Source: Halalkalicoccus jeotgali B3 (GTDB lineage Archaea > Halobacteriota > Halobacteria > Halobacteriales > Halalkalicoccaceae). From it: a DNA stretch of 64,000 nucleotides. The notes beneath the pieces were generated by a model, which did not search any database, was not told the origin of the DNA, and was given only the letters and a program-made list of their open reading frames with translations. Of the stretch, positions 16,590-44,481 are shown piece after piece (the stretch's first letter is position 1; every line of letters begins with the position of its first letter). The position numbers and the translations under genes were made by a program. The stretch spans positions 124,001 to 188,000 of the forward strand of contig NC_014299.1 in assembly GCF_000196895.1 (NCBI RefSeq), given 5' to 3'.

Positions 16590-16812
16590 CGCCCGGCCAT
16601 CCCTGCGACCGCCCGGTCGTGAGCGTCGGCTCTATCGGACGTTCGTTTGTTTCACGCTTTGAGGAACTGATTCTGAGATTGCGGCCCGATTCCGTCAGTG
16701 GGTTCTTTGCTACGGCAAGAAAACACCTGCAACGAATGTCCGTTCCGTGCATTCAGCGGCTACCTAGCCGACATCAGCTTACACAGTTCCACGAAGCCAA
16801 AGCCAAGGGGAT

Positions 16813-17907
16813 GACTCAGGGAACTATCGACGAAACGCCAAGCGCGTCATCATCCGCTGGATCAACTGGCTCACCTAACGAGACATCGAGCGCTTTGAGC
16901 AGCTTGACGAAACCGTCCTCGCCCACTAGGCCGAACATCTCCGCTGTCGTGTCGCCGCAAGCGAAGCCGAGACGACCGACGGGGGTATCGCCCGCTCAAC
17001 CGCCTAGACCTACTACAAGACGGTCTCAGCCTTTCTCGGCTGGGCCTCCAAATGGGGCTACCTGCAAGAGAACTACGCCCGAGCTAGCCTCGCTCAGGAG
17101 TCGATGCCTGAACAGTCCGCATTACAGCAGTCCCAACAACAGTTCTGGGCTCCAGAGCAGCGCACGCAGATCCTCGACTACGTCAACAAGCGTGCTCACG
17201 ACGCCATCGACGAGAAGGGTTCGATGCTGACCGTGAAGCACGAGATCGCGCTCTCGTCGCCGTCCTCGCATTCACTGGAGTGCGTGCATCCGAAATTTCC
17301 GCTCTGAACACGACAATCGTACCGGCCGTCAGGGCATTCGCTGGCGCGACGTCGACCTCGACGAACGGACATCTCCGTCCTCGGGAAGAACCAGCAACGC
17401 CAATCCGCATGGCTCCTTGAGCAAGCGATCCCCGCTGTCGAACGCTATCGGACGATCAGTGATCCACCGACCGATGATTGACCGGTCTTTCCCACGAGAC
17501 ACGCGCTATCGCTCTACGAGTGTGCTCGCACGCATCTTTGCGAAGTGGAGGGTAAAGACGAGGAGACGATAGAAGCGGTTCTCGAGGAGAACTCAATCGA
17601 GGACGTGTTGCGGGAGTACCGGATGGTCTCACCTGCGATCACGACGACGGGCGCGCGAAGCGTGATGAAACGGCTCTGTGCGGCCGCAGAGCTCGACATT
17701 CCGACTCCACTGGAGGGTCCTGGGTATCTCCAACTCCACGGCGCTCGCCGCGGGATCGGTGATATCTTTTATCGGATGGATCATGGCACTGCGCAGGACC
17801 TCATGCGCCACCAGAGGCTCGAAACGACCAAAGACCACTATTCACATATCGACGCGACGGGGGGCGCGAAACGTGCGAGTGAAATACTCGACCAGTCTGA
17901 AGAGTAA
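16813..17907 (+). pseudogene. Tyrosine recombinase (XerC/D-like integrase), heavily degraded
   Basis: The SAM-like N-terminal domain reads NYRRNAKRVIIRWINWLT and TYYKTVSAFLGWASKWGY but is interrupted by a TAA and two TAG codons (about 16878, 16926 and 17007). Near 17248 the frame shifts to AFTGVRASEISALN, where the first catalytic arginine lies. The last third is open (17545-17907) and holds HGARRGIGDIFYRM (His-x-x-Arg) and LMRHQRLETTKDHYSHID (His and the nucleophilic Tyr). This is a former integrase that could mark an old integration event just left of the replicon core. Confidence 0.8.
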
Positions 17908-18022
17908 GCTGGTGGGTCGAAGCCTAATAGAGATATCGACAATATCGCTATAGACGACGTTCGCGCCAACGATAATTTTCAGATAGTGTAGATAATAGGA
18001 TATATAGGGAATATTTAGTGGT

Positions 18023-18076
18023 GCATAATTCACGCTGTGCGCACAATTTGCAAAATGTGAAAAATGGGTATTGCAT
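18023..18076. repeat. 9-bp-phased AT-rich array downstream of the par operon
   Basis: Six consecutive 9-mers are aligned in phase: GCATAATTC, ACGCTGTGC, GCACAATTT, GCAAAATGT, GAAAAATGG, GTATTGCAT. They share T/A-rich cores and GCA/GT edges with the array upstream of parA (19466-19754). A second centromere half-site is possible. Confidence 0.35.
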
Positions 18077-18107
18077 CAGATACCTGGAGGACCAGTGAAT
18101 CCCTTCC

Positions 18108-18575
18108 TTAGTTACGTAGCACCTCAACTATTTCCTGAACTCGTTGTTCATCAGCCTCAATATCACGTTCACGAAGGATTTGAAGAGCGACCTCGTCAGC
18201 GTGATCTGCAACGACCTGAAGGCATGCATCCTGAAACTCTCTGCCTTCAAATTCGGGAAGATCGAACATTGAGCAAGCAGCAGTCACTGACGACCGTGCT
18301 CGAGTAAGGTCATGCCACGTCTCATCACGGACATAGAATCCATGCATATCAGTTTCGTCAAACGAAAACGGTGGTCCACTAGTAGATTCGTCTCCATCCG
18401 AGTCAACCGGTTGCTGAGGAGATTCAGATTTTTTGTTCACCTGTTGATCATGTTCTTCGACAGGCGAGTTGGTGTCTTCTTCCGAGATAAAATCTTCCTC
18501 GGTGTCTAGTGCTTCTTTCTCCGTTTGTTTGAGCTGCTTAGCGACGTCACTAAACCGGTCGTCCTCATCAGTCAT
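18108..18575 (-). CDS. Putative ParB-like partner of ParA
   Basis: 155 residues, very acidic in the first 70, then a compact domain (FDETDMHGFYVRDETWHDLT and EFQDACLQVVADHADEVALQ). Its start lies inside the last codons of parA (8-bp overlap), so the two are translated together, as in bacterial and archaeal parAB operons. No ParB/Spo0J or RHH motif is clear by eye. The centromere-binding role is inferred from position and from the repeat arrays on both sides. Confidence 0.55.
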   Translation of the reverse strand: MTDEDDRFSDVAKQLKQTEKEALDTEEDFISEEDTNSPVEEHDQQVNKKSESPQQPVDSDGDESTSGPPFSFDETDMHGFYVRDETWHDLTRARSSVTAACSMFDLPEFEGREFQDACLQVVADHADEVALQILRERDIEADEQRVQEIVEVLRN

Positions 18576-19440
18576 GACTGTGTTCCTCCACGAGATCCGC
18601 TAAGTAGTCGAAGTTCGGGATCTGATCGCAGTCCTCGTCGAATTCCGAGACTGGTAGTCCCTGTTTGAAAGCCCGAGAAATAGCCGTTCGTTCACGGATC
18701 CCAGGCTTCGGGACCTCATCGATACTGCGTTCTGGATCGTCAAGCGCATCGAAAATATCTGGATCAATCTGAGCATATTTGGGAACAAAGGAGCCGAATT
18801 CTCGATTGAGGTTCTCAACGAGAATTCGATGCTCGTTGTGCTGACCCATCGTCTCCCGAATCATATTAGGCGTCACGGCGAGGATATCGAGACCAATATT
18901 CTCTCGAATCGGCGAAATCTGACGTCCGATCATCTTATTCAGTCCATTGATCGAGCCTGCACGGGGAATAAGCGGGATGATTACCCGTTGGACAGCGATG
19001 AGTGCATTGTCGGACAGTTTACCTCGGCCGCCTGCTGCGTCAATGATTACGTAATCGAACCCGTTTTGGATCAGTGGTTCAACTACGTTCCGACGAAGCT
19101 TCACGTCTGCAAATCGTTCGTCCTTCAACCTCGTTTCTACGTTCTCCAGATCGTCGTTCGAAGGCAAGAGATAGACTCCGAATTCCGTCTCGATAAGTAA
19201 CTCGCGGGGATCTTCACCGTCGATGACTGCATCGCCAAGATTTGTATCTCGGTCGTACGCATCATCATACCCCAGCTGAGTGGTCATATGGCCATCTTTA
19301 TCGAGATCAATCAAGACAGTCTCATGACCTCGAGCTGCGAGCCGATCAGCGATATTGAGTGCGATTGTGGACTTTCCCACCCCACCCTTCAGGAGGGAAA
19401 TTGCTGCACCAGGAAGTCCTTCGAACTCTCCAGTACTCAT
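18568..19440 (-). CDS. parA: ParA/Soj-family partition ATPase
   Basis: 290 residues. The deviant Walker A motif LLKGGVGKST (residues 16-25) has the signature lysine. TVLIDLDKDGHMTTQLGYDD is the A' segment and FDYVIIDAAGGRGKL the Walker B region. The protein lacks a long N-terminal HTH, so it is the type Ib/Soj-like short form and the downstream partner probably binds the centromere. ParA forms ATP-dependent gradients or filaments that position plasmid copies. It reads away from the AT-rich repeat region at 19441-19893. Confidence 0.9.
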   Translation of the reverse strand: MSTGEFEGLPGAAISLLKGGVGKSTIALNIADRLAARGHETVLIDLDKDGHMTTQLGYDDAYDRDTNLGDAVIDGEDPRELLIETEFGVYLLPSNDDLENVETRLKDERFADVKLRRNVVEPLIQNGFDYVIIDAAGGRGKLSDNALIAVQRVIIPLIPRAGSINGLNKMIGRQISPIRENIGLDILAVTPNMIRETMGQHNEHRILVENLNREFGSFVPKYAQIDPDIFDALDDPERSIDEVPKPGIRERTAISRAFKQGLPVSEFDEDCDQIPNFDYLADLVEEHSHD

Positions 19441-19893
19441 TGGCCATCACCAAGATAATATCGAGATATTGCACATTGTATGGGGAATCTAGATTTTGTA
19501 GATTTTGTGGGCAATTTAGGTTTTGTAAGCAATGTACGTTTTGTGGAAGTCATATATACCCCATGTAGCTCGCACAACTTAATTCTACGTCAGACGCATC
19601 GTCTACATTTTTTACATAATGTAAAAAATCCTCGATCTAGGAATCGTCCCCTGCACCATTTTGCTCCCAATCTGGTTCCAATGGATGACGTAAACAGTGT
19701 AGATTTTTCAGATTATGCAAAAAATACAGATTATGTAAGCTATGGAGGTTGTGTCACCAATCCAGAAATCTTGCACTCTACAGAGCAATCGTCAGATTGG
19801 ACTAATAGACTATTCAATATTGCACATTAGTGAACTACCTTCAAACCAAGAGGAGGATAGATAGTCTCAATCCAAAACCAGGTGCTGCTTCTC
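19441..19893. repeat. Candidate centromere: 9-bp-phased arrays and a 23-bp palindrome
   Basis: The spacer before parA is strongly AT-rich. From 19466 to 19546 the sequence divides into nine 9-mers, four of them of the type RTTTTGTRR (19493, 19502, 19520, 19538). From 19701 to 19754 six more 9-mers follow the same phase (AGATTATGC, AGATTATGT and relatives). Between them ATTTTTTACAT (19607-19617) and ATGTAAAAAAT (19619-19629) form a perfect palindrome. ATATTGCACATT occurs at both edges (19466 and 19817). Such iteron-like phasing suits a centromere-binding protein. Confidence 0.55.
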
Positions 19894-20307
19894 TTATTGA
19901 TACTCCTCGAAAGCCTCCCCTTCGTGAGCTACTAATTCCACTGCGAAGTCGATAGTTCGTGCTCCAAGGCCACTGATTGCATAGTAAGAGTAGGGCTGAT
20001 GTTTCTCAGGATCCGTCTGTTTCCAGTGTGTGACAAGATTAGTTTCTACAAGCTTGTCAAGATGTGAATGGAGGGCGTTTCCGCTTCGGCCAGTCATGTT
20101 AGAGAGTTCCTTTGCACTCATGCCATCGGCGTCCCGAAGTCGATACAAAATGGCGAATCGCAGCGGATGAGCTACCGCCTTAAATCGATCAGTGAAATCG
20201 GACAACTCCTGTGGATTCGTCTCTTCGAGTAGCTCTGCTGTAACGTCAGCAATGAGCTGTGAAGCCGTATTCCCCTCCACATCGGTATCCGCTCCTGTGC
20301 TTGCCAT
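19894..20307 (-). CDS. ArsR-like winged-helix regulator
   Basis: 137 residues. The winged-helix core runs from about 45 to 115: RFKAVAHPLRFAILYRLRDA, then MSAKELSNMTGRSGNALHSH as helix-turn-helix, and LVTHWKQ...YSYYAISGLG as the wing. No metal-binding cysteines are present, so it is not a classical arsenic sensor. It is divergent from the DUF7509-like gene and sits between parA and the origin, so local control of replicon genes is likely but unproven. Confidence 0.75.
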   Translation of the reverse strand: MASTGADTDVEGNTASQLIADVTAELLEETNPQELSDFTDRFKAVAHPLRFAILYRLRDADGMSAKELSNMTGRSGNALHSHLDKLVETNLVTHWKQTDPEKHQPYSYYAISGLGARTIDFAVELVAHEGEAFEEYQ

Positions 20308-20436: not shown

Positions 20437-21120
20437 ATGCGCGAGTATGATGGGAAGCCGATGCGAGACGTTCTCCTTGAGCGACTTCCTGTTGCCCCTT
20501 ATCCGAACTTTCTCGTCTATATGATGGGCCCATACACGAAATTCGAGCTGGAGTACGTCCTTTCAGAAGAGACGGACTCAGAGGATGTCAAGGCCGATCT
20601 TGGTGCATTTAGCACTGCTGATCAGGAATTCATTACTGAACTCGAGAACCTCTGTTCGTTCCTTCGAGACGACCCAGGTGTGAATGCATTCATCGCTACC
20701 GATCCCGAGATTCCCCTTCCTGAGAACAAAGACGACGAAGAGCCGGTGATGAATGCTATTGCACAGTCAAAAGCATATGCTGAAGCCAGCAATGCTATCG
20801 CGTTCGTTCTTCCGATCGCTGGCCTCCGAGACGGAGTAAGTGCGGAAATAGGGGCGGTACTTGAGTCAATGGATCTAGAAAATAGTGATCCCGGTCCCTC
20901 AGTGAAGGATCCACGTCGATTTCGAATTTTCGCCGAAGCTGGAATTACGAGTACGACGATCTACGCCACAGAAGACGAATATAGCGTGCCGATCGTGGAG
21001 TACAGTTCTAAAGAACAGTTACGAAAGGAGCTTCATGAGTTCGTGACGGATGTCGCTATCCTCGAGCAGAACGGAATCCTTCCTCCAGTGCAAGAAGAGA
21101 GTAACGAAGAAACGTCCTAG
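20437..21120 (+). CDS. DUF7509-like replicon-associated protein
   Basis: 227 residues. The text FLVYMMGPYTKFELE followed by FLRDDPGVNAFIATDPEIPL and AYAEASNAIAFVLPIAGLRD looks like a Rossmann-type domain related to nucleoside 2-deoxyribosyltransferase folds. GVSAEIGAVLESM could supply the active-site glutamate. This kind of protein is, to my knowledge, found beside orc1/cdc6 genes on haloarchaeal plasmids, as here. The biochemical role is unknown. Confidence 0.55.
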   Translation: MREYDGKPMRDVLLERLPVAPYPNFLVYMMGPYTKFELEYVLSEETDSEDVKADLGAFSTADQEFITELENLCSFLRDDPGVNAFIATDPEIPLPENKDDEEPVMNAIAQSKAYAEASNAIAFVLPIAGLRDGVSAEIGAVLESMDLENSDPGPSVKDPRRFRIFAEAGITSTTIYATEDEYSVPIVEYSSKEQLRKELHEFVTDVAILEQNGILPPVQEESNEETS

Positions 21121-21576: not shown

Positions 21577-22803
21577 ATGCGTCGGTTCGAGCGGAAGCAA
21601 AACATCTTCCGCAATAAAGACGCCCTTGGAGAATCTTATCAGCCCGATCAAATTGAGGAACGCGACGAAGAGATCGATGAGTATATGGATGCTCTTCAAC
21701 CAGTCGTCGACGGTTGGGAACCGAACAATATCTTCCTCTACGGGAATACTGGCGTTGGGAAAACGGCTGTTACCGACTACCTTCTTGAGAGACTGCAAAA
21801 TGACGTCTCTGAGTACGAGGATATTGATCTCTCAGTCATCTCGCTCAACTGCAAGACATTGAATTCATCGTACCAGGTAGCTGTTGAACTCGTCAACAAA
21901 CTTCGACCAGCCGGTGGAGAGATTAGTTCGACAGGATATCCACAACAAACCGTTTTCAAAAAACTGTATAAAGAGTTTGAAGCAATTGGAGGAACGATTC
22001 TTTTGGTGCTTGACGAAATCGATTCGATTGGGGCACGTGACGAACTCTTGTATGAGCTGCCACGGGCACGAGCAAACAACAATCTCGATACAGCGAAAGT
22101 CGGTGTTATCGGAATTAGCAATGATTTCAAGTTCCGTGATCAACTGGACCCTCGTGTCCAGGATACACTCTGTGAGAGAGAGCTACATTTCCCACCATAT
22201 GATGCACCTGAACTAGAAAACATCCTTGATTCCCGGGCTGATGTCGCAATTACTGAAGACGGGCTTGAGCAAGGTGTTCTAAATTTTTGCGCTGCCCTTG
22301 CTGCACGTGATAGTGGAAGTGCTCGACAGGCGCTTGACCTACTTCGACTTGCTGGAGAAATCGCCGAAAACAGTGATGCAGATCTTATTGAGCGTGATCA
22401 CGTCGAAGGAGCGCGAGCACGACTTGAGCAAGAGCGTGTTGAAGAGGGGATGCGGGAGCTAACGACACACGGTCGACTAGCATTACTGGCAGTGATTTCG
22501 AAGACTGCAAAGGGGGAAACGCCGTGTCGGACTCGTGATATTTATGAGGAATATCTCACTCTCTGTAACTCCTCCGGGACCGATTCGCTCGCCCAACGGT
22601 CGGTACACAACCACCTCTCCGATCTCCGAATGCTTGGCATCCTATCGGCATACGAGAATCGTAGTGGATCTCGCGGTAACTACTACAGCTATGAGTTAGA
22701 TGTCCCGTTCACCAGCGCAATCGAAGCAATGTCCGATGTTCTTCGAATGGACGGTGAGATTGAGGTAATTCAAGAGATTGCGTCGGTCAACGGCGTTTCA
22801 TAG
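21577..22803 (+). CDS. cdc6: Orc1/Cdc6 replication initiator
   Basis: 408 residues. The AAA+ core includes LYGNTGVGKTAVTDY (Walker A, residues about 54-68), ILLVLDEIDSIGARDEL (Walker B) and the initiator-specific sensor region GISNDFKFRDQLDPRVQDTL. LCERELHFPPYDAPELENIL and SGSARQALDLLRLAGEIAE follow, with the sensor-2 arginine. A C-terminal winged helix lies at about 295-385. Flanking repeats on both sides match its expected binding sites, so it should initiate replication of this replicon. ATG 21577 gives the normal short N-terminus. Confidence 0.93.
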   Translation: MRRFERKQNIFRNKDALGESYQPDQIEERDEEIDEYMDALQPVVDGWEPNNIFLYGNTGVGKTAVTDYLLERLQNDVSEYEDIDLSVISLNCKTLNSSYQVAVELVNKLRPAGGEISSTGYPQQTVFKKLYKEFEAIGGTILLVLDEIDSIGARDELLYELPRARANNNLDTAKVGVIGISNDFKFRDQLDPRVQDTLCERELHFPPYDAPELENILDSRADVAITEDGLEQGVLNFCAALAARDSGSARQALDLLRLAGEIAENSDADLIERDHVEGARARLEQERVEEGMRELTTHGRLALLAVISKTAKGETPCRTRDIYEEYLTLCNSSGTDSLAQRSVHNHLSDLRMLGILSAYENRSGSRGNYYSYELDVPFTSAIEAMSDVLRMDGEIEVIQEIASVNGVS

Positions 22804-33627: not shown

Positions 33628-33725
33628 AACGAGAATCAGCAAAAATGACTGCTCTATTGGAGTACTGATACGTAGATAGTCTGTACCTAACGAATCAGTA
33701 GTGACGTTGAAGAAGAGAAGAGAAG

Positions 33726-33974
33726 TTAGTCGCTAATGTTCACGCCGGACTGGATCTCATATTCGAGTTCGACCTGCGACATGGACAGCAAGGCCGCGAG
33801 TTCCGGTGTCATATCGGGGTGATCCATCGCCCGATCGAGATTCTTCATCATCTCCTCGGTAAACTGTGCGCTCGCATCGATCGCGCCCGACCGCGTAGAT
33901 TCGTTCAGAAGATCGCCTACGCGGTCGTATAAGTCTGTACGCCACTCGTATTTGTCGGATGTGTTGATTCTCAT
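33726..33974 (-). CDS. DUF7692-like small protein
   Basis: 82 residues: MRINTSDKYEWRTDLYDRVG opens the protein and a helical remainder follows (QFTEEMMKNLDRAMDHPD). It resembles haloarchaeal DUF7692 proteins, small helical, possibly ribbon-helix-helix-related proteins on plasmids. It diverges from the HTH-Doc operon across a short region with repeated CAATAGG motifs, so it may regulate that promoter. Confidence 0.6.
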   Translation of the reverse strand: MRINTSDKYEWRTDLYDRVGDLLNESTRSGAIDASAQFTEEMMKNLDRAMDHPDMTPELAALLSMSQVELEYEIQSGVNISD

Positions 33975-34074
33975 GGATCTGTCTTTACCTAATGCTTATA
34001 CGCAATAGGAAATAAAGACATCAATATGCTATTGAGCAATAGGGATTATGTAGGTGGGGCAGGTATCGTCTGAT
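33975..34074. promoter_or_regulatory. Divergent promoter with repeated CAATAG motifs
   Basis: The 100-bp gap between the divergent genes holds GCAATAGG at about 34002 and 34037 and the inverted pair CTATT-GAGC-AATAG (34029-34042). TATA-like GCTTATAC is near 33994. Repeated half-sites fit binding by the HTH protein or the DUF7692-like protein. Confidence 0.45.
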
Positions 34075-34341
34075 ATGGAGCGAAAGCGCGACGATTCGGG
34101 GAAATTCGTCCCACAAGTTACCGATGAACGGGTCTTGGACGCACTCGGAGAGGGAACCTTATCGGCTCAGCAGGTAGCCGATAAACTCGGATGCTCGCGA
34201 CAGGCGGCCGACCGACGGCTACGGAATCTCCTCGAGGACGGGACAGTCGAGAAACACACCTTCGGACCCAGAAGCGTCGCGTGGTCGCTCACCGACGAGC
34301 TTCAGGATGTCGTCTGTGAGGGCGAAAGCGATGACGAATAG
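34075..34341 (+). CDS. Winged-helix protein, probable antitoxin to Doc
   Basis: 88 residues from ATG 34075. A clear helix-turn-helix/wing occupies residues about 18-65: VLDALGEGTLSAQQVADKLG, then CSRQAADRRLRNLLEDGTVE and RSVAWSL as the last strand. The stop overlaps the Doc start by 11 bp, so the products are made together. It replaces the Phd antitoxin usually found with Doc; antitoxin or repressor function is inferred from this position. Confidence 0.7.
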   Translation: MERKRDDSGKFVPQVTDERVLDALGEGTLSAQQVADKLGCSRQAADRRLRNLLEDGTVEKHTFGPRSVAWSLTDELQDVVCEGESDDE

Positions 34342-34750
34342 CGGTGATGGCACTCTCCCGACAGCGAAAGATATCGTAACTGTCCACGATGAGATTGATG
34401 AGGAATATGATTTGAAGTACAAGGGTGCCCGCGTTGCATCACCGAGACTTGAACTCCGTCCACATACCCGCAAGGCGGCCGAATATGACGATGTGTACAT
34501 ACGAGCCGCCTTTTTGCTTCGGAAGGTGGTGACGGCCCATGTATTCGAAGATGGAAATAAGCGCACTGCATGGAACGTGGCAACATCGTATTTAGAGCAG
34601 GCCGGCGCGCAACGAGCTGATACAGACGTGGCGGAAGCTCGTGTCGTGCGTAGTATCCGGAAATATGAGGTGGAGGAAATCGCCAAGTGGTTGGAAACCG
34701 GCGCGATCGACAAATCACGATTGAACCCACCCCGGACGGATAATGAATAA
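34331..34750 (+). CDS. doc: Doc-like (Fic-fold) toxin
   Basis: 139 residues from ATG 34331. The Fic/Doc catalytic motif is HVFEDGNKRTA (H70 to A80), with the active-site histidine and the phosphate-binding GNKR. Doc phosphorylates the elongation factor EF-Tu in bacteria; the archaeal target would be aEF1A or another protein. The preceding ARVASPRLELRPHTRKAAEY matches the usual helical segment before the motif. It is coupled to the HTH gene, giving a toxin-antitoxin module near the start of the unit. Confidence 0.85.
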   Translation: MTNSGDGTLPTAKDIVTVHDEIDEEYDLKYKGARVASPRLELRPHTRKAAEYDDVYIRAAFLLRKVVTAHVFEDGNKRTAWNVATSYLEQAGAQRADTDVAEARVVRSIRKYEVEEIAKWLETGAIDKSRLNPPRTDNE

Positions 34751-34765
34751 GTAGGTGTGAACACT

Positions 34766-34891
34766 ATGGAAGACAACATGAGCAAGACGCACAACCAGGA
34801 ATCAAACGACAGCGAGAACGAATCATTCGTCGAGACAGCCCGTCGGATGCGGGATGAGGAACGTGATGTTCTCGACGCGCTTGAGGATTAG
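34766..34891 (+). CDS. 41-residue acidic protein after doc
   Basis: MEDNMSKTHNQESNDSENES, then a helix FVETARRMRDEERDVLDALE and stop. It begins 15 bases after doc and is in the same direction, so it is probably in the same transcript. It is very acidic with a C-terminal amphipathic helix. It could be an accessory antitoxin or only a short remnant. Confidence 0.4.
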   Translation: MEDNMSKTHNQESNDSENESFVETARRMRDEERDVLDALED

Positions 34892-35017
34892 CTCCGTTTT
34901 TTGAGGTTGCGCCTACGGCCCGCGGAATGAGAAGCGCCTGATTCTCGAGCAGCGGGAGGAAAACACGGAACTCATGAACCACGCTCAGACGGAACACGCC
35001 TATCGTGAGGCAAGTTT

Positions 35018-35368
35018 TTACTGCTCCTTGGATGGCATACCTGTCAACCACCATTTAGCGCGTGTCATAATTCCTGCTTGAGCACGTTGCTTCTGAAGTG
35101 ATTGCTCGTCTTCTACGACTTTGACTAGTTCATTGGATGCATCTATCTTCTCAGTGGTTGCAATCAGTTTAGATTGAAGCTCATCGATTCGTGCTTCAGC
35201 ATGATTCAACTCTGATTCAAGCTGCTCCGTCTGTGATTCACACTGAATCGCTCGATCAAAAATACGTCTAATAGCCTCTGCATCACTAATATCGCTATCT
35301 GCCTTTGATTGTACTTCATTAATATACTCGATATGTTCTGCTCGGACTTGTGGAGTGATTCGCTTCAT
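35018..35368 (-). CDS. RHH-like plus coiled-coil plasmid protein
   Basis: 116 residues. Residues 1-40 (MKRITPQVRAEHIEYINEVQ, then ISDAEAIRRIFDRAI) look like a ribbon-helix-helix DNA-binding unit. Residues about 45-95 form a coiled coil (QTEQLESELNHAEARIDELQ) and the tail is basic (ARAKWWL-type). Such proteins act as copy-number or partition regulators on plasmids; here the role is unknown. It is transcribed away from the stem-loop region before the rep-like gene. Confidence 0.55.
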   Translation of the reverse strand: MKRITPQVRAEHIEYINEVQSKADSDISDAEAIRRIFDRAIQCESQTEQLESELNHAEARIDELQSKLIATTEKIDASNELVKVVEDEQSLQKQRAQAGIMTRAKWWLTGMPSKEQ

Positions 35369-35921
35369 GATGCAGTATGAATCGTTAATGGATCATAGAG
35401 GTACGTCAGCCAACCGTCAGACATTCATTCGCTATCTGTCACTGACCTTTATAAGCAAGGTGTGTGAGGTCATACGCAAAGCTACGGAACACGAAAAAGG
35501 CCGGAAGGGGCCAGACCTAATACATCTCCCCTTTCTGGCTGGCATGGCATAACTGTTTGCCTGTCTCGTTAGCCCGTGGCTCATCAGATGGCCATGACAG
35601 CAATTCCCAATGCTGCAGAGAGACACGCGGTCGGTGCGACCTTCTTCAGCATGGATGCTGCACCGGAGGCGCAGCTGATAGAAGACGAGATTACGTTAGA
35701 TACGCGAGGCTGTGCAGGTAGTTCGATCGAACGGCGCTGGGAGCCCCCTCTTGAGACGGGGTCCAGGCTCCCATCAGCGCCGAAACACGCACAATCGAAG
35801 GCTGGCACCTTCGATGCGAGGCCTTGGGCCTCTACCTGGGTATTGGACGTCCGGGTTCATGGGTCTTTCTCGTCGCGGTGCGGTGCCCGGCCCGTCCGGC
35901 CGTGATCGGACGACCGGAACG
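35369..35921. other. Non-coding stem-loop region upstream of the rep-like operon
   Basis: About 550 bp with no convincing gene. GGCGCTG-GGAGCC (35733-35745) pairs with GGCTCCCATCAGCGCC (35766-35781) with a 3-nt bulge, and ATCGAAGG (35794-35801) pairs with CCTTCGAT (35808-35815). The two hairpins lie 13 nt apart, about 110 bp before the operon. They could be part of a replication origin or a structured RNA controlling rep expression. Confidence 0.45.
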
Positions 35922-36029
35922 ATGACGACTGACAGCATCACCAAACCAGACCACGACTCGGAGTTCGTACGCGCAACTGCCCTCTCGCGATTTGACCCGC
36001 GACAGAGCACGCTCACGGAGGCGATCTAA
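35922..36029 (+). CDS. 35-residue leader protein of the rep-like operon
   Basis: MTTDSITKPDHDSEFVRATA, then LSRFDPRQSTLTEAI and TAA. The stop overlaps the next ATG (TAATG), and the next stop overlaps the following start, so three genes are chained. Too short for a family call, but the coupling supports it as real. Confidence 0.5.
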   Translation: MTTDSITKPDHDSEFVRATALSRFDPRQSTLTEAI

Positions 36030-36157
36030 TGGCTCAATGCGAGGGCGGCGGCCACGTCACAGCCCTATTCGTCCGAGTGTTCGGGGTATCGGGCGCGATC
36101 GCTGGCTGTTTCGAGTGTTCTGACCGCCAGACGGTTCGGAGTGGGTTCGATGAGTGA
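36029..36157 (+). CDS. 42-residue cysteine/histidine mini-protein
   Basis: MAQCEGGGHVTALFVRVFGV then SGAIAGCFECSDRQTVRSGF. C4, H9, C27 and C30 could bind one zinc ion in a small ribbon-like knuckle. It overlaps both neighbours (TAATG before, ATGAGTGA after), so it is coupled to the rep-like gene. Function unknown. Confidence 0.5.
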   Translation: MAQCEGGGHVTALFVRVFGVSGAIAGCFECSDRQTVRSGFDE

Positions 36158-37793
36158 GTCACGTTTCCTGCTTGAGACGGCTGTGGACGAATTTGGTGGG
36201 AACCTGATTTACACCGGAAACGACCTCCTCCCGCACTTCGCACTCGACAAGGCGGTTAAGGACGCCGACGGATCGGCCCGCGCCCGGTTCGACAGGGGCG
36301 ACGAAACGTGGGTAGCCACACTCTCCTATCAGGAATCGGGGCTTGCACCGCGCGATCACCCGGACTATCGCCTCCAGACGGTTCGCGAGCACCGGATTAC
36401 CGTCAAACCAGTAGAGGACCAGGCCGGGAAACGTCGGGCGCGCTTCCATGTCGCGCCACGCTGGCCGGATATGCGAACGACAGACGGAGATTCAATCTCG
36501 ACACCCGATATTGTAGGCGTGAACGTTCGCGCTCAGGGTGCCAAACTCGACTTTGGGGAGTATCCTGAACTCCTCCGAGGGGGGGCCGAAGCCCTAGACA
36601 TCAATCCGGCGTACTTCACGGGCGAGCACTCCTACTCAAATATCTACGAGGCCGAAACGTACGTTCGGGTCAATCGGTCCAAGTCGGGCCGTGTGTTCGG
36701 GCGCGGGTCCGTCATGGAACGAATCTTTGAGTTGGCCGCCGAATCGGGCAAATACCGAAAACTCGTCGAGGACGATACGGGCGGAGACGGGTTCATGCAC
36801 ATGGCGGCGTTCCGGCCTGAGACGGCAGGTGCGCTCATCTCGGGCCACGAATACGGTAAGCGGATCAAACACTACCTGCTCAAGAATCCGCCTGAGGACC
36901 CGTCAGACCCGTTGTATCACCCAAAGGTGTGTATGCTGTTCAAGAAGTCGCTCAATACGTCTACGGTCCCGTGGTCGGACAAGGCGGGGCTTCGACGGGA
37001 GTTAGACGAGCAGCTGCTAAATCTCTTGAGTTGGGCTGGCCTGCCGACCCGTCCGAACGAATCGAGCGACACCTACGTTCCCGATGGATACTTTGAGGAC
37101 ACGGACACGATTCGGCCGACGATCTCCCTGATAGACGACCCGACACCGGACATCAAGCGAGAGCAAGGGACGGCCGTAATCAAGGCGCTTGCTGGCCTTG
37201 GGACAGGAAACCCGGACCTCAACAACTCGGACGCCGAAGCCTTGCAGGTCATGGCCGACGGGGGACAGGTCCAAGACGTCACCTCACTGGCCGAGGCGAT
37301 CGGCCGTTCGCGCCGGACGGTCTACCGGATCGTCGACCGTCTCTCGGACCTCTTAACGCTCGAGAACGGGGCCGTCGCCTTCGGGTCGGACTATCTGGCC
37401 TCGCAGGCCCGCCACGGGCTCAGACACGCCCGTGAGGCCTTCGAGAACGACGGCAAGGGTTCGGGCGAATCGAGCGCATGGTCGGCGTGGTGCGCCGAAT
37501 ACGGGCCTGAGGTTTCTGACCGGTTTCCTGACGCCGACATTACCCGGGTCAAACTCGAGTTTGGTGAGATACCCGACGAGGCCGACATGGAGGAGATGCT
37601 GAAAGAAGGGCTAACGGCGTGGATCCGTTCAGGCCGTGATAAAGTCGAGTACGTAGCAGGCCGTGCCTTCTGGCGTCAGAACGGAGAGGGGCTATCCACA
37701 TCGGACACGCCCGGCAGTCGGGCCGGTGGTATGCCAGATACTGTCCCGTCCCGGTCAACGACGACCGGATCAGATCTCAAATCCGTCAGATAG
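36150..37793 (+). CDS. DUF7845-like protein, candidate plasmid replication protein
   Basis: 547 residues from ATG 36150 (overlapping the mini-protein stop). It opens FLLETAVDEFGGNLIYTGND, a DUF7845-type N-terminus as I recall it. A long domain with HVAPRWPDM and GEHSYSNIYEAETYVRVNRS follows. A helix-turn-helix lies at about 380-405 (DVTSLAEAIGRSRRTVYRIV), and the C-terminus is acidic. It is the largest protein of the unit and the only one that could be a replication initiator. No HUH, RepH or primase motif is visible, so replication is inferred from context only. Confidence 0.55.
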   Translation: MSESRFLLETAVDEFGGNLIYTGNDLLPHFALDKAVKDADGSARARFDRGDETWVATLSYQESGLAPRDHPDYRLQTVREHRITVKPVEDQAGKRRARFHVAPRWPDMRTTDGDSISTPDIVGVNVRAQGAKLDFGEYPELLRGGAEALDINPAYFTGEHSYSNIYEAETYVRVNRSKSGRVFGRGSVMERIFELAAESGKYRKLVEDDTGGDGFMHMAAFRPETAGALISGHEYGKRIKHYLLKNPPEDPSDPLYHPKVCMLFKKSLNTSTVPWSDKAGLRRELDEQLLNLLSWAGLPTRPNESSDTYVPDGYFEDTDTIRPTISLIDDPTPDIKREQGTAVIKALAGLGTGNPDLNNSDAEALQVMADGGQVQDVTSLAEAIGRSRRTVYRIVDRLSDLLTLENGAVAFGSDYLASQARHGLRHAREAFENDGKGSGESSAWSAWCAEYGPEVSDRFPDADITRVKLEFGEIPDEADMEEMLKEGLTAWIRSGRDKVEYVAGRAFWRQNGEGLSTSDTPGSRAGGMPDTVPSRSTTTGSDLKSVR

Positions 37794-38173
37794 CGCGGCG
37801 TTCCTGAGTGGCAACACTATCCACCGTCCCGTTTTCGGCTTGATTTTCGTCGTCTGAGGCTCCGTTTCGGGTGGAATTTTTCGCGCGTTTCTGCGAAGGT
37901 GGCGGTGGTATTTTGATTGAGTGCCCTTAGGCACGCCTCCTAAGAGAATATTGACACCCCCTGTCGAAACCGGACTAACCCCACACTGTGAGGCGGTGCG
38001 GTTCATCCTGCTGCGGTGGGGGGGAAGCGGGGCTGGTATCTTATCTCGCACTTCTCCAAACGGAGTAGAAGCATTTCCGATTAGCCGTCATGCGTCTGAG
38101 GGCCATCCGCCGATTACCGTTCTTTCTCTGAAGGAGACAGCTTTATGGCGCACGTGGACGTACATGTATGTGT
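37794..38173. other. Spacer after the rep-like gene
   Basis: About 380 bp with no gene seen. It holds a hairpin GTGCC-CTTA-GGCAC (37921-37934) and an AT-rich patch (about 37900-37955). This could be a terminator or part of an origin. A TATA-like GCTTTATGG precedes vapB at about 38139. Confidence 0.4.
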
Positions 38174-38407
38174 ATGGCTACAAAGACACTCACGATCACC
38201 GAGGACGCCTATGAGCGCCTGAAAGCGCACAAGCGCGGTGACGAGAGCTTCAGCGATGTAGTAAACCGGCTCTCGAAGTCACGAGACAACCCGAAAAAGG
38301 CGCGAGGGCTTTGGGATGACATCGACGCAGGGCAGGACCACAAAGAGAAACACCAGCAACTTGGCGAGGAGATTGACGACCACTACGATGAGATGTTTGG
38401 ACAATAG
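38174..38407 (+). CDS. vapB: VapB-type antitoxin
   Basis: 77 residues from ATG 38174. The N-terminal strand-helix-helix TKTLTITEDAYERLKAHKRG, then SFSDVVNRL, is a ribbon-helix-helix DNA-binding unit of the VapB/DUF217 type common in haloarchaea. The acidic, disordered C-terminal part (GLWDDIDAG onward) would wrap around the toxin. Its last codons overlap the vapC start by 20 bp. Confidence 0.85.
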   Translation: MATKTLTITEDAYERLKAHKRGDESFSDVVNRLSKSRDNPKKARGLWDDIDAGQDHKEKHQQLGEEIDDHYDEMFGQ

Positions 38408-38786
38408 CGTCCTAAGCGACTATCTTCGCTCGGACAACCCCCGCCACGAACAGGCGGCCACAGTAATCGAGTCCTATGATGGAGCGTGGTATCTCCCGAT
38501 GCCAGTGTTGTGGGAGGCTCTGCGATACGGAGCACAGGCCTCCCGAAAACCCGGTGTTACCAAAACTGAGGCAGCGCTAAATTGGGCCGATCCCCTTCCG
38601 GTAACGGCAGGTGCGGTCACTGAGGCAGCCATGATCGAGGCTGAACTCCTCGACCAGGGCACGCCGATCAATGCAGTGGACATGCTAATAGCAGGGATTG
38701 TCCGTGAAGCAGGCGCGACGATCGTTACCCGCGATAGTGACTTCAACCGTATTGAGGGCCTCCAAGTCACCAATATTGACGAGTAG
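38388..38786 (+). CDS. vapC: VapC toxin, PIN-domain ribonuclease
   Basis: 132 residues from ATG 38388 inside the vapB gene. The PIN-domain acidic residues are visible: D5 in RCLDNSVLSDYL, E43 in MPVLWEALRYG, D98 in NAVDMLIAGI, and D116/D118 in IVTRDSDFNRI. They chelate Mg/Mn for cleavage of RNA, often tRNA. With VapB it forms a classical toxin-antitoxin module. Confidence 0.9.
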   Translation: MRCLDNSVLSDYLRSDNPRHEQAATVIESYDGAWYLPMPVLWEALRYGAQASRKPGVTKTEAALNWADPLPVTAGAVTEAAMIEAELLDQGTPINAVDMLIAGIVREAGATIVTRDSDFNRIEGLQVTNIDE

Positions 38787-38799
38787 GCTCTATCGCTGG

Positions 38800-38962
38800 C
38801 TACTCGTCGCCGTCGTCGCTCTCCTCGCTCTCGTCGTCCTCCGATCCAACGGTGATTTTGTGTAGTACTCGTTTTCGTACACCTCGACACAGTTCCGTTG
38901 TCTGGCGTCTCGATCGTTCCCGAGTACGCCGAGTTCTTTCAGTCGGCGAGTGACTGTTTACC
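38800..38962 (-). pseudogene. Winged-helix remnant, C-terminal
   Basis: The minus strand contains TVTRRLKELGVLGNDRDARQ, then RNCVEVYENEYYTK in one frame. The tail ITVGSEDDESEESDDGDE and stop are in another; a single missing A in the run near 38860 would join them. The pattern is the recognition helix and wing of a MarR-type protein. The N-terminus is gone. Confidence 0.4.
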
Positions 38963-38979
38963 TTATCCTGCCAGCCCCG

Positions 38980-38998
38980 ACGGCCCCAAAGGGGCCGT
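38980..38998. terminator. Perfect GC hairpin
   Basis: ACGGCCCC-AAA-GGGGCCGT, an 8-bp GC-rich stem with a 3-nt loop, sits between the converging wHTH remnant and the DUF4177 gene. It has no long T-run. A terminator or protein-binding site is possible. Confidence 0.45.
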
Positions 38999-39074
38999 GA
39001 GGCTCCCGCGGTGGAGGAGGGGAGAAACAAACTAATAGGCAAGTTCAAGTGCTCACCATAAGCAATAGCTCTCA

Positions 39075-39278
39075 ATGTCCGCAAGCGACGACTACGAATA
39101 CAAGATGATCCAGCCGTCGACTGGTCTATTAGGAATTAAGACAGAAAACACGGAAAAGAAAGTCAACAGACTTGCTAAAGACGGCTGGGAACTTGACGAG
39201 GTAATCGAGAACTGGTTTTGGGGAGATAATCTCATCTTCAAACGCCCTCGGTCAAGTGGGAACGCAAACGTAGACTAG
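39075..39278 (+). CDS. DUF4177-like small protein
   Basis: 67 residues: YEYKMIQPSTGLLGIKTENT, then KVNRLAKDGWELDEVIENWF and NLIFKRPRS. The strand-helix-strand form with a GWEL motif and a closing LIFKRP is the signature of DUF4177 proteins, whose function is unknown. It heads a run of tiny membrane-protein genes. Confidence 0.75.
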   Translation: MSASDDYEYKMIQPSTGLLGIKTENTEKKVNRLAKDGWELDEVIENWFWGDNLIFKRPRSSGNANVD

Positions 39279-39291
39279 CCGTTCGAACCAC

Positions 39292-39477
39292 ATGGTGATA
39301 AAACCGATTTTGGATATGGGCCAGCAATCGGCTATTGCTACGCTGTTGCTATTTGGGTTCGGTGTCGTATTTCTATTGATTGGCGGGTTTGTCGGTTTTC
39401 AACTGGATACGGTCACTGCTGGCTACGGGCGTCAGCGTGTGGCTTTCATGTGTATCTTTCTATGGCATTTGGTCTAG
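39292..39477 (+). CDS. Small membrane protein (two helices)
   Basis: 61 residues. One helix is clear (TLLLFGFGVVFLLIGGFVGF) and a second, weaker one lies at the end (VAFMCIFLWHLV). It starts 14 bases after the DUF4177 gene, in the same direction. Family unknown. Confidence 0.45.
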   Translation: MVIKPILDMGQQSAIATLLLFGFGVVFLLIGGFVGFQLDTVTAGYGRQRVAFMCIFLWHLV

Positions 39478-39633
39478 CATTTTCTACGTAGCCTGCGTCA
39501 GATAATGACCACCCCCGTCAGTAGTCACTTGCTTACTGACAGAGGGCTCTGACAGAGTTGATTGCAGCAGCGAGGCCTAGAGCACCAGTCACGGCACCCA
39601 AACAGATATATCAGCGGTCGTCGTTCAGAGCGC

Positions 39634-39861
39634 ATGAATCCCATCGTATGGGCGAAATCCAAAGGTCCCGCGTATGTCGGATTAGAGATCACAGCAACGA
39701 TTTGCATTGTTCTCTTAATCTCGTTTACTGTGGTGAAAATCAACAACCCCTCTTACCAACCTACTATTGATTCATCGCTTATTGCCGTTGCCGCGATCTT
39801 CTTCGCAATTGTCGGTATGCAATTCGACAAATCCAACCGCGATAGTAGTAGTAGTCTGTAG
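39634..39861 (+). CDS. Small two-helix membrane protein
   Basis: 75 residues from ATG 39634: GLEITATICIVLLISFTVVK and SSLIAVAAIFFAIVGMQFDK are hydrophobic helices, followed by a polar tail. Its form resembles other tiny membrane proteins of this block. No function known. Confidence 0.45.
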   Translation: MNPIVWAKSKGPAYVGLEITATICIVLLISFTVVKINNPSYQPTIDSSLIAVAAIFFAIVGMQFDKSNRDSSSSL

Positions 39862-40024
39862 CCACCTGGTTGCTGACCCGGGGTGTCGCTCCGGTGTAAT
39901 TAGCATGCTACTGAGCGTGTCATAGAATCGGTCACGTGACCTTTGAAATCCGTAGTGAACGGTAGATATAGACCGTTCACACCCATTAACTGGGTTTATC
40001 CCGCTAGAAATCCAAAGACATCAT

Positions 40025-40195
40025 ATGTCTGACGAAGAGGACGATCAAATAGATTCGAATAAGATGGGTCTAGGGATTGCGTTCGGACCTCTAATGGGAG
40101 TCGTTCTTGGGCTTGTACTGAATGATATCGGGATAGGTATTGCGATTGGGATGAGTCTCGGTACCATTTTCGGTGTAGTGTGGGGCCTAACGTAG
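40025..40195 (+). CDS. 56-residue glycine-rich membrane protein
   Basis: MSDEEDDQIDSNKMGLGIAF, then PLMGVVLGLVLNDIGIGIAI and GMSLGTIFGVVWGLT. Small residues at i, i+4 positions give glycine-zipper helices that usually pack as oligomers in membranes. It is preceded by an AT-rich stretch (GGTAGATATAGACC near 39960) and a good ATATG start. Confidence 0.5.
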   Translation: MSDEEDDQIDSNKMGLGIAFGPLMGVVLGLVLNDIGIGIAIGMSLGTIFGVVWGLT

Positions 40196-40449
40196 TTTAC
40201 TGCCACGTGCGAACGTGAACAGCTGACCCTGTACTTACAGGTATATGTGCCGGCTGATTCAAGCAGAACAAGTTGAAACCAACGCTCTGAGTGTCTTTCT
40301 ATGACACGCTCTGCTACTCTCAATAGACCGCTCTTGTTGACAGGGGTATTCTGAATTAAACGGCGTGGGGCTACTAACAGTCTGTCAGTAAGCAAGTGGC
40401 TACTTGTATGGAGAGATAGAGATAAGCCACTGGCACGATCAGCAATAAC

Positions 40450-40659
40450 ATGGTTTCAAAGCCTACACAACAGACACTAGGCACTGCTTGGATGATAGTC
40501 ATCCTCGGCATTTCGACATTCCTGATAATACTCGCCTCCAGCGGCGACGGAGCCGTTTGGGGAATGCTTGGAGTGATTGTCGGAACCGCCTGTGCGCTGC
40601 TCGGATTATACATTGGGCACACTGAGAGTGGCGATCCAGCCTGTGCGTGTCGAAGTTAG
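40450..40659 (+). CDS. Small two-helix membrane protein
   Basis: 69 residues: TAWMIVILGISTFLIILASS and WGMLGVIVGTACALLGLYIG are two membrane helices around a charged turn (GDG). The C-terminus has two cysteines (CAC). It continues the block of tiny membrane proteins. Function unknown. Confidence 0.5.
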   Translation: MVSKPTQQTLGTAWMIVILGISTFLIILASSGDGAVWGMLGVIVGTACALLGLYIGHTESGDPACACRS

Positions 40660-40712
40660 GGAACAACCGCGCCGCCCTGTAACGAAGGGAGTGACTGCTG
40701 ACAGGGAGTGAG

Positions 40713-41132
40713 CTATACAGATTCCGTATTCGCGGTGTCGAATTGCTCGCGTTTGCTGTAGAGATACACCGCAACGAACGCGGGTACGACGACTCCCAAA
40801 AGTGTTACCGGTTCAGGTGTCTGTACCACCGCGATAAGGCTACTGATCGCTGCACCAGTATAGAGGACGAACCCCCACGTCCATGCCCAAGATCGCCCGA
40901 TCCACAACCCGGCAGCGACGACGAGCAAGCCGACACCCACAACGAATACGAAGGCAACGACGAGGAGGGATGCAGTAGTCCCATCTGTGAGACTGGGGTT
41001 CGTAGCGATTTCAAGAGCGGCGATGGCTAGCACGAATGCGGCGACTCCGAAGATGGCCGCGAGGATTTTGACTCCTATCGAAGGTTTTCTAGAAGACCCG
41101 ACCGTGTCTGCCCATCGACTTATCATACCCAT
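40713..41132 (-). CDS. Four-helix membrane protein (DUF7144-like)
   Basis: 139 residues (ATG 41132 or 41126). Four helices are visible at about 20-42, 55-75, 80-98 and 105-125. LWIGRSWAWTWGFVLYTGAA in the third fits DUF7144-type small haloarchaeal membrane proteins, although the match is by eye. Convergent with the previous gene. Confidence 0.5.
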   Translation of the reverse strand: MGMISRWADTVGSSRKPSIGVKILAAIFGVAAFVLAIAALEIATNPSLTDGTTASLLVVAFVFVVGVGLLVVAAGLWIGRSWAWTWGFVLYTGAAISSLIAVVQTPEPVTLLGVVVPAFVAVYLYSKREQFDTANTESV

Positions 41133-41549
41133 ACCGAATCTAGTGTTCGGTCGTCACATAGTTATTTCGCGGAGTGCTGGAGGAGCGGGAACCCGACCGT
41201 CAAATGAGCCATGCACTTCGGCGTTCACCCCCGTATCCCGCCAGCGCGCCGCGGTTTGGCGCGCGTCGGCAGGGGCCGGGTATGGGTCCGGTCCCGGCCG
41301 GGTCGGCATGACTTATGATAGAGGCAAGGAAGGATTCGGCCACGTTGACCCACCAAGGCGACGATAGACCGCGGTTAAGCACCCATGTTTAAGTGTCTAG
41401 CCGTATATAAAATATATGGAAGCGGCGATGACCACCGACCTGCGCACTCGGTGCGAGCATCGGCGCGATTCGTCGTCAAGTCATAGCTGGGGGGTTCGAC
41501 ACCCCTCTGCGGGTTTCAAATACACAATCATAATCAGACAATCATAATC
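41133..41549. promoter_or_regulatory. Promoter and long structured leader of the eleven-gene operon
   Basis: A strong TATA box (GTATATAAAATATATGG, about 41403-41419) would start transcription near 41440, leaving a leader of about 110 nt. The leader has a stem-loop AGGGGTGTCGAACC-type arm (GGGGG-TTCGACA-CCCCT, about 41490-41507) shaped like a tRNA T-arm. Just before the ATG are two copies of CAATCATAATC (about 41525 and 41540). Upstream, GGGTCCGGTCCCGGCC and relatives near 41280-41310 are GC-rich inverted repeats. Confidence 0.5.
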
Positions 41550-42134
41550 ATGAGTAGCAACACAAGCGAGCGGTTGGCACAGACGGTCGATTTGGTCGGC
41601 AAGGACCTCGAGGACCTGACGGTTGCGGAGTTTGCAAAGGCGCTTGAAGCGGCCGGATTCGTCCGAGCGGGCGAGGGCGAGGGAGACGAATCGGTGGAGG
41701 CAGCGGCACGCCGGGTCGTCATGCAGGACACCGACGCCGCTCAGGACACACTCGCGAAGTACGGGACTGGCGTGGACGACAACGGCCTCAAAACCACCGG
41801 GGAAATGACGGCCGAATCCCGTCGCCGACAGGCCGAGATCGCGGCGACCGAGGCCGAGTCACGGTCTGGCGACCCGCTCGAAGCGTTCGGGACTGGTGTC
41901 GATAACAACGGCCTCGAGGAGTTGACGGCCAACGAGATTCCGGCCGAACTCGACGCCGACACCGCGAGCGACGCCCATCCGTATCAGCATGGCCCGGCCG
42001 ACGCCTCCGAGGACGACCCCAACCCCCTCGTTGAGGAGTACGGCACGGGCGTCCAGGGGGACCACTCGCGGGCTGACGAGGAACGGACCAAACTCGCCAA
42101 AGCAATTGCTCGCGAACTGAGCAAGCGGGAGTGA
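41550..42134 (+). CDS. Acidic protein with three GTGV repeats
   Basis: 194 residues, first gene of the small-gene operon. (Y/F)GTGV occurs at residues 71-75, 113-117 and 164-168, each followed by an acidic D/N-rich or Q-rich segment and a helix. The N-terminal part (DLVGKDLEDLTVAEFAKALE) is helical. I do not know this family. The repeats may bind a partner in several copies. Confidence 0.6.
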   Translation: MSSNTSERLAQTVDLVGKDLEDLTVAEFAKALEAAGFVRAGEGEGDESVEAAARRVVMQDTDAAQDTLAKYGTGVDDNGLKTTGEMTAESRRRQAEIAATEAESRSGDPLEAFGTGVDNNGLEELTANEIPAELDADTASDAHPYQHGPADASEDDPNPLVEEYGTGVQGDHSRADEERTKLAKAIARELSKRE

Positions 42135-42138
42135 GTTC

Positions 42139-42372
42139 ATGCGCTCACCTCGAGATCTCACGTCTCGCGTCTCGGACCTGGAGGGGGGCACCGGCCCCGA
42201 AAACCTCCCGGCGGCGGGGATAATCGTCCTCCTCTCGACGGCGAAGGCGGGCGGCTCACTCCTCTGGGAGGACAAAGAGCGGGGCATCATCCTCGTGGAT
42301 GGCGAGCCTCACAAGGTCACGGACAACGCAGTCGAGAAGTTGGATCTAGACCCGTCGATAAGCCGCGGATAA
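42139..42372 (+). CDS. Small protein with LxxRVxxLE N-terminus (operon gene 2)
   Basis: 77 residues. The opening MRSPRDLTSRVSDLEGG carries the LxxRVxxLE motif shared with three later operon proteins. The rest (NLPAAGIIVLLSTAKAGGSL, then EDKERGIILVDGEPHKVT) looks like a small beta domain. Starts 4 bases after the first gene. No function known. Confidence 0.55.
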   Translation: MRSPRDLTSRVSDLEGGTGPENLPAAGIIVLLSTAKAGGSLLWEDKERGIILVDGEPHKVTDNAVEKLDLDPSISRG

Positions 42373-42383
42373 TCTCACCACTC

Positions 42384-42455
42384 ATGCACGCTATAACCAC
42401 CGACATTGCCGAGACCGGGCGGGAAGTACGCCAACCCATGGGGGGTTCGGTATGA
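42384..42455 (+). CDS. 23-residue peptide ORF (operon gene 3)
   Basis: MHAITTDIAETGREVRQPMG and three more residues, then TGA overlapping the next ATG. Its position, 11 bases after gene 2 and overlapping gene 4, argues that it is translated, perhaps mainly to couple ribosomes to gene 4. It could also be a chance frame. Confidence 0.35.
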   Translation: MHAITTDIAETGREVRQPMGGSV

Positions 42456-42718
42456 GCGCGGATTCGCCGCCGACACCAGAGACCGACGGGCCGGACATCC
42501 CGGACCGCGCGGAAGTGATTTCCCTCCTCGAGGACGGCATATCAGAGGCCCACCGGAAGGTGACTGCCGGGCGGGTTCGCGACGCCGAGAACGAAAAGGT
42601 CCGTCAGGGGTGGATTCGCCAGCTGGCATACGCATGCGGACAGTATCGTCAGTTGAAAAAGGACCAGGACCTCGAGGAACTGGCCGAGCGGGTTGAGCAA
42701 CTGGAGGAGCGCCAATGA
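42452..42718 (+). CDS. Helical protein with C-terminal LAERVEQLE (operon gene 4)
   Basis: 88 residues. An acidic N-terminus precedes helices (DRAEVISLLEDGISEAHRKV; AENEKVRQGWIRQLAYACGQ; YRQLKKDQDLEELAERVEQL). The last one contains the LxxRVxxLE-type heptad that other genes of this operon carry at their N-termini. The layout resembles small phage or plasmid DNA-packaging or assembly proteins, but no match is certain. Confidence 0.55.
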   Translation: MSADSPPTPETDGPDIPDRAEVISLLEDGISEAHRKVTAGRVRDAENEKVRQGWIRQLAYACGQYRQLKKDQDLEELAERVEQLEERQ

Positions 42719-42879
42719 CTCGACAGGGGCTCGCGAATCGGATTGAGTCACTGGAGGCCGAGCGTCCGGGTGACGGGACAGTAATCGAACTCCGGGATAC
42801 GGTGGTCGCGACGCCGTGGGAACCGACGGAAGGCGAGGCCCCGGAACCGGGGGTTACTGAGGAGCGGATCGAACTATGA
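42715..42879 (+). CDS. 54-residue protein with LANRIESLE N-terminus (operon gene 5)
   Basis: MTRQGLANRIESLEAERPGD, then TVIELRDTVVATPWEPTEGE and an acidic tail. ATGA overlaps on both sides. The N-terminal 13 residues are clearly related to those of genes 6 and 7 (MTRxxLxxRVxxLE), while the rest differs. Confidence 0.6.
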   Translation: MTRQGLANRIESLEAERPGDGTVIELRDTVVATPWEPTEGEAPEPGVTEERIEL

Positions 42880-43061
42880 CTCGGCGTTCGCTCGAGGACC
42901 GAGTTGACTCGCTCGAATCGGGCCGGTCGGGTGGCTCGCTCGGCATTGAGTTCAACCACGTCTTAGTCATGTCTCGCGAGCGTGCCGAGCGCGAAGGCCG
43001 GGAGATACTCGGTGTGGCCGATACGCCCGGCGACGCCGAACATGTCAGGGTCGAGCCATGA
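42876..43061 (+). CDS. 61-residue protein with LEDRVDSLE N-terminus (operon gene 6)
   Basis: MTRRSLEDRVDSLESGRSGG, then a domain IEFNHVLVMSRERAEREGRE ending VADTPGDAEHVRVEP. The central strand-helix pattern differs from its neighbours although the N-terminus is shared. ATGA overlaps link it to genes 5 and 7. Confidence 0.6.
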   Translation: MTRRSLEDRVDSLESGRSGGSLGIEFNHVLVMSRERAEREGREILGVADTPGDAEHVRVEP

Positions 43062-43300
43062 CCCGCCGTTCTCTCGCGAATCGGGTCGGGGACCTGGAGG
43101 ACGACCAACCGAGCGAGGGTTTCCAGAAGTTCGTGATCGGTGGGGACGCCGACGAAGCGGATCGGAAGAGCGGCTTTTACGAGTGGAACGCCGAACGGGG
43201 CGTCTATGTCAACGAGCAGGGCGTTGAGATCGCTCCGGGCAAGGAACCGGGCAGTGATCTTGAGTACAAGATTGAGTATTCCGGGACGGGGGACGAATGA
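43058..43300 (+). CDS. 80-residue protein with LANRVGDLE N-terminus (operon gene 7)
   Basis: MTRRSLANRVGDLEDDQPSE, then QKFVIGGDADEADRKSGFYE, WNAERGVYVNEQGVEIAPGK and an acidic end. The YEWNAERGVYVNEQG part looks like a beta-rich binding domain. It overlaps the stop and start of its neighbours. Confidence 0.6.
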   Translation: MTRRSLANRVGDLEDDQPSEGFQKFVIGGDADEADRKSGFYEWNAERGVYVNEQGVEIAPGKEPGSDLEYKIEYSGTGDE

Positions 43301-44350: not shown

Positions 44351-44358
44351 CGCCCCGA

Positions 44359-44481
44359 ATGAGCGCGGATACTCCCGGCCTCTCGGAGCTACTCGTCGAC
44401 AAAGTGGTTCCGTGTCCTGAGTGCGGTCGCCCCTTCATCCAAGAAAATGCGATGAAGGTCCACCGCTCGAGCACGCACTGA
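44359..44481 (+). CDS. 40-residue C2H2 zinc-finger protein (operon gene 11)
   Basis: MSADTPGLSELLVDKVVPCP, then ECGRPFIQENAMKVHRSSTH and TGA. CPEC...HRSSTH places two cysteines and two histidines as in a classical C2H2 finger, with a hydrophobic F and M in between. Small zinc-finger proteins regulate haloarchaeal genes and biofilm formation. It lies 8 bases after gene 10, so it is probably made from the same transcript. Confidence 0.65.
   Translation: MSADTPGLSELLVDKVVPCPECGRPFIQENAMKVHRSSTH

Follow-up and report, generated by a model that had tools for sequence, protein, structure and literature searches.

We analysed a haloarchaeal genome of 3.7 Mb and report that one of its contigs (C3, 364 kb) carries what is very probably (a probability of roughly 0.8) a two-gene, ParA-driven plasmid partition locus of type Ib-like organization, in which the product of the gene that follows parA is the predicted centromere-binding protein (CBP) of a lattice of 9-bp units acting as both centromere and operator. 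The locus lies within the 64-kb stretch of DNA analysed here, hereafter the window. Like known type Ib systems, it combines a short ParA without an HTH, a small partner encoded directly 3' of it, and short direct and inverted repeats upstream. ParA, the partner and the 9-bp repeats make a strong candidate for a centromere of large haloarchaeal plasmids. The proposal in the first-pass annotation of a 9-bp centromere-like site for an unrecognised partner protein, distinct from the ORB repeats, is supported by strong comparative evidence. The features of the locus and its surroundings are collected in Table 1.

Table 1. Coordinates of the par locus, its repeats and neighbouring features in the window
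Feature	Position	Strand	Description
parA	18568-19440	-	AAA_31, E=2.1e-27; 290-aa deviant-Walker ATPase (KGGVGKS)
Partner gene (putative CBP)	18108-18575	-	155 aa; 3' of parA, the two genes overlapping by 8 nt
Array A	19466-19546	+	nine contiguous 9-bp units, consensus ATTNTGTAG; between parA start and promoter-like block
Array B	19694-19756	+	seven contiguous 9-bp units
Array C	18021-18074	-	six 9-bp units, same sense as the genes, just 3' of partner stop
Palindrome	19607-19629	.	23 bp, perfect, 11-bp arms ATTTTTTACAT-A-ATGTAAAAAAT
Conserved block	19580-19594	-	TCTGACGTAGAATTA, 15 bp, between arrays
Isolated unit	17983-17991	+	ATAGTGTAG, motif-model score 10.8
Isolated unit	19817-19825	+	ATATTGCAC, motif-model score 8.6
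Tyrosine recombinase	16619-17907		decayed, frameshifted; beside array C
HTH gene	19894-20307		ArsR-like
DUF7509 protein gene	20437-21120		past HTH gene, between par locus and orc1/cdc6
orc1/cdc6	21577-22803		2 kb from the repeats
Direct duplication, first copy	33673-45233		at least 11.56 kb; copies 99.97% identical, 18.8 kb apart
Direct duplication, second copy	52441-64000		cut by the window end

The ParA is a short-type ATPase whose Walker motif occupies residues 18-24, with no N-terminal HTH extension and with AAA_31 and CbiA as its only domain matches; its homologues are 88-89% identical in the close clade described below and 35-50% identical at distant loci. The partner, for which searches of Pfam, NCBIfam, PHROG and PDB returned no match, consists of a conserved N-terminal motif, a long acidic linker and a conserved C-terminal domain (residues ~66-137). 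F8 in the N-terminal segment is invariant across the family, and the invariants of the C-terminal domain are Y81, R112-E113, D116-A117 and R137. The sequence pattern of this domain, a short strand-like segment (YVR/YIP) followed by two helices, is suggestive of a ribbon-helix-helix (RHH) as its candidate fold. A search of the partner profile against PDB did not find SegB, and hhalign comparisons with omega, ParG, Arc, MetJ, CopG and NikR scored the same as shuffled controls. Two AlphaFold (AF2) models of the partner were of low confidence (mean pLDDT 56 and 60) because close relatives were the sole sequences supplied, and Foldseek gave no fold match with them.

Array A reads ATATTGCAC ATTGTATGG GGAATCTAG ATTTTGTAG ATTTTGTGG in units 1-5 and GCAATTTAG GTTTTGTAA GCAATGTAC GTTTTGTGG in units 6-9. 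The first-pass annotation had placed nine in-phase 9-mers at exactly these coordinates. It had also described six at 19701-19754 and six at 18023-18076; both are genuine arrays, the former now extended to seven units and the latter shifted by 2 bp in register (Table 1). An autocorrelation check for a 9-bp period, which it had suggested for the 18000-19900 region, bore out arrays A and B: against dinucleotide shuffles, lags of 9, 18 and 27 bp gave z scores of 3.4, 4.3 and 4.8 for array A and 3.9, 5.4 and 2.9 for array B, and array C was weak alone (2.2, 2.0 and 0.9). A 9-mer motif model trained on twelve relatives, with the window excluded (consensus ATTATGTAG), located 18 sites in the 653-bp flanks, against 1.8 expected from the remaining window, and recognised three in-phase sites in array C. 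The 453-bp upstream region by itself holds 13 sites, and none of 44 AT-rich segments of equal length from the rest of the window has more than 6. Across the whole genome, the paired-unit pattern with at most one mismatch has 11 matches, nine of which fall at the studied locus or on contig C2 beside a truncated copy of this parA, the other two being single-mismatch sites. That copy (C2:359200-359440) comprises the first 39 residues, at 97% identity, retains a proximal array and lies 3' of a transposase-like sequence.

Units are present in both orientations, and their phase is kept across the flips. Of 71 neighbouring pairs with the same orientation in the window clade, 66 are in phase, and of 42 pairs with opposite orientation, 35 share one register. 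When all clades with a 9-bp pitch are pooled, 296 of the 472 opposite pairs fall in the register of their clade, where a random register would yield about 52; the former figure is somewhat inflated by picking the modal register clade by clade. Flips without loss of phase are the pattern expected if one symmetric dimer occupied every 9-bp step. A motif search on both strands pointed to palindromic 9-mers; we rejected the idea that the units are true palindromes, since a strand-resolved test backed it in clades 7 and 11 only and a global test gave little.

The same gene pair was found on 27 further contigs from many genera, with a partner identity of about 61-67%, and these form the close clade. 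At all 28 close loci the top lag upstream of parA is 9, 18 or 27 bp, and the block after the partner stop contains at least three sites within 150 bp at 23 of 27 loci, compared with 0.2% of 401 control segments. Outside this clade, ParA lies directly upstream of the partner at 95 of 99 surveyed loci. A profile of the partner family detects relatives in 148 of the 292 haloarchaeal genomes, spread over 50 of 77 genera. When 295 genomes from across the phylum were sampled, the 24 positives all belonged to one and the same order, and the family therefore looks haloarchaea-specific. The viral contigs searched held no partner relative. The pitch upstream of parA was scored with a statistic in which codon periodicity cancels out. 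For 9 bp, 108 of 123 loci, a set that includes near-identical copies and some plasmids from two collections, score above the highest of 180 control regions (81 of 96 without the close clade), and the pitch is indistinct in 11 of the 123. Three distinct Halobaculum loci (L029, L030 and L060; four entries, one duplicated) have an 8-bp pitch, with the unit GGATATNT and a ParA that reads KGGVTKT. Among the 9-bp clades, the unit is ATTNTGTAG in the window clade, ACAATTTGT in Haloferax and allies, and CTATTGTAC, AGACTGTGT or AGCTGAGGT in others. Judged from the sequences of the surveyed loci, both unit and pitch change with the partner clade.

Several versions of the system coexist in the genome under study. 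Contig C2 encodes a second member of the partner family, accompanied by a separate 9-bp array built of another unit, and a third par locus (L050, C2:97761-98923) pairs a 9-bp AACGAA array with a different partner family (RTIYIPDDVLD...EKNRHFYPLL), a combination also present at loci L266-L270. Some places match both family searches, which suggests that the two partner families belong to one superfamily. No array was found beside the ParA paralogues on contigs C1, C3 and C5. At a chromosomal locus (L038, C1:1055083-1056125), ParA is followed by a protein of 110-120 aa related to the RTIYIPDDVLD family, without a clear 9-bp array. The decayed recombinase next to array C has relatives near 15 of 29 close or own-genome loci, and its C-terminal part is 79% identical to the relative beside the second par locus on C2. 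We consider it likely, if less firmly than the reading of the window itself, that these loci represent a haloarchaea-specific partition class, found in about half of genomes and in several distinct versions per cell, whose predicted CBP family recognises a lattice of 9 bp, or of 8 bp in one clade, the unit and pitch diverging with the protein and so giving each large plasmid its centromere identity.

The rival reading that survives best, although we hold it to be unlikely, is that the arrays are operators only, through which the partner autorepresses the parA operon, the true centromere lying elsewhere. Its basis is that arrays A and B flank the block TCTGACGTAGAATTA, which precedes the parA start by 151-155 bp in the window and in 26 of 27 close relatives, the exception being one rearranged locus; this block is probably a promoter, or else a fixed element between the arrays. 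An operator, however, would have no use for ~17 upstream units per locus and a further conserved block 3' of the partner stop. The paired-unit pattern is, moreover, nearly absent from the genome outside the locus, and the repeats of known type Ib systems serve both roles (PMC5016525).

All 29 of the close or own-genome loci have ParA and three have an Orc1 relative nearby, and the HTH and DUF7509 neighbours of the window have relatives at one; the arrays co-occur with ParA and the partner, not with Orc1, HTH or DUF7509, and therefore belong to the ParA-partner pair. We accordingly rejected the ArsR-like HTH protein as the array binder. The same counts make it very improbable that the nearby Orc1/Cdc6 binds the repeats as iterons of a replication origin, even though an orc1/cdc6 gene is close by here and at a few distant loci: ORB repeats would be co-inherited with an adjacent orc1/cdc6 gene, and these are not. 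The 9-bp unit is in addition unlike the long G-string ORB repeats that adjoin orc genes (PMC3528665), and its sequence tracks the partner clade.

Comparably remote is a pNOB8-like arrangement, in which a winged-helix AspA-type protein would nucleate on the 23-bp palindrome and then spread. The perfect palindrome noted earlier between two of the arrays is real, such an arm never arising when the 453-bp region was shuffled 300 times, and its length matches that of the AspA site (PMC5120986). It is, however, absent from all 27 close relatives, and the AspA precedent and the special role that the first-pass annotation had drawn from it are therefore not supported; nor does the locus contain a third, separate AspA- or ParB-like gene, the HTH protein having a relative at one of the 29 loci only. 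The palindrome is composed of a converging (head-to-head) run of the 9-bp units and is specific to the window; we favour reading it as a local peculiarity of the lattice over a site of AspA-like nucleation. Chance periodicity in AT-rich intergenic DNA, to which the weakness of array C alone might lend itself, is refuted by the comparative test and can be set aside, shuffles, AT-matched windows and all 180 controls being exceeded and the pitch recurring throughout the survey.

For the two-gene partition system that we favour, we propose a scheme of coating, repression and ParA contact drawn from its analogy to omega of pSM19035. Partner dimers would each occupy one 9-bp unit, irrespective of its orientation, and would stack cooperatively along contiguous units both upstream of parA and just 3' of its own gene, the resulting nucleoprotein constituting the centromere. 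Because the array brackets the probable promoter, the coated DNA would also repress the operon. Nucleoid-located, ATP-bound ParA would then capture the partner-coated array, and the conserved N-terminal segment of the partner may trigger ATP hydrolysis by ParA, by which the plasmid copies would be moved apart.

Haloarchaeal genomes include secondary chromosomes and very large plasmids that are inherited stably. In the literature searched, largely openly accessible papers, we found neither a haloarchaeal plasmid partition site nor a haloarchaeal CBP. If our reading is correct, a candidate for each has now been named for haloarchaea, across 50 genera, and unit sequence, pitch, orientation rules and plasmid incompatibilities could be predicted from sequence alone. 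Archaeal plasmid segregation would become testable in the genetically tractable Haloferax, and the natural series of proteins and DNA lattices (9 versus 8 bp, with many units) could reveal how a centromere code changes. The kind of machine, a type Ib-like ParA with an iteron-binding partner, is already known; what appears to be new is the protein family, together with the pitch of 9 or 8 bp and the haloarchaeal spread.

Comparison with known systems places the locus accordingly. The AspA-ParB-ParA system of pNOB8 is likewise ParA-driven, carried on an archaeal plasmid and associated with a 23-bp palindrome (here in the window only), but it consists of three genes and a conserved palindrome, whereas the present locus has two genes and phased short repeats. 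Archaeal SegAB shares the overlap between the 3' end of a ParA-type gene and the gene of its DNA-binding partner, but SegB sites are scattered 13-bp TCTAGA-S-TCTAGA palindromes (PMC12284271); a search for this motif here showed no enrichment, with 8 loose matches against 12.7 expected and none in the arrays. The ParF/ParG/parH system of TP228 and ParA/ParB of pCXC100 have the same ParA-CBP gene order and upstream repeats that double as operator (PMC5016525), although the repeat sequences are different and the partner has no detectable similarity to ParG. From delta/omega/parS of pSM19035, the studied system differs in being haloarchaeal, in a pitch of 9 bp (8 bp in one clade) and a unit of ATTNTGTAG where omega reads 7-bp WATCACW repeats, and in a partner with no detectable sequence similarity to omega, which is an RHH protein. 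The two nonetheless share a ParA without an N-terminal HTH, a small CBP (a predicted one in our case) whose flexible N-terminal part is joined to a C-terminal domain, and several blocks of short, contiguous, non-palindromic units that occur in both orientations and bracket promoters (here a probable one); in pSM19035, dimers of omega occupy contiguous 7-bp repeats whichever way these point, and at least four contiguous units are required for full activation of ParA (PMC9499535).
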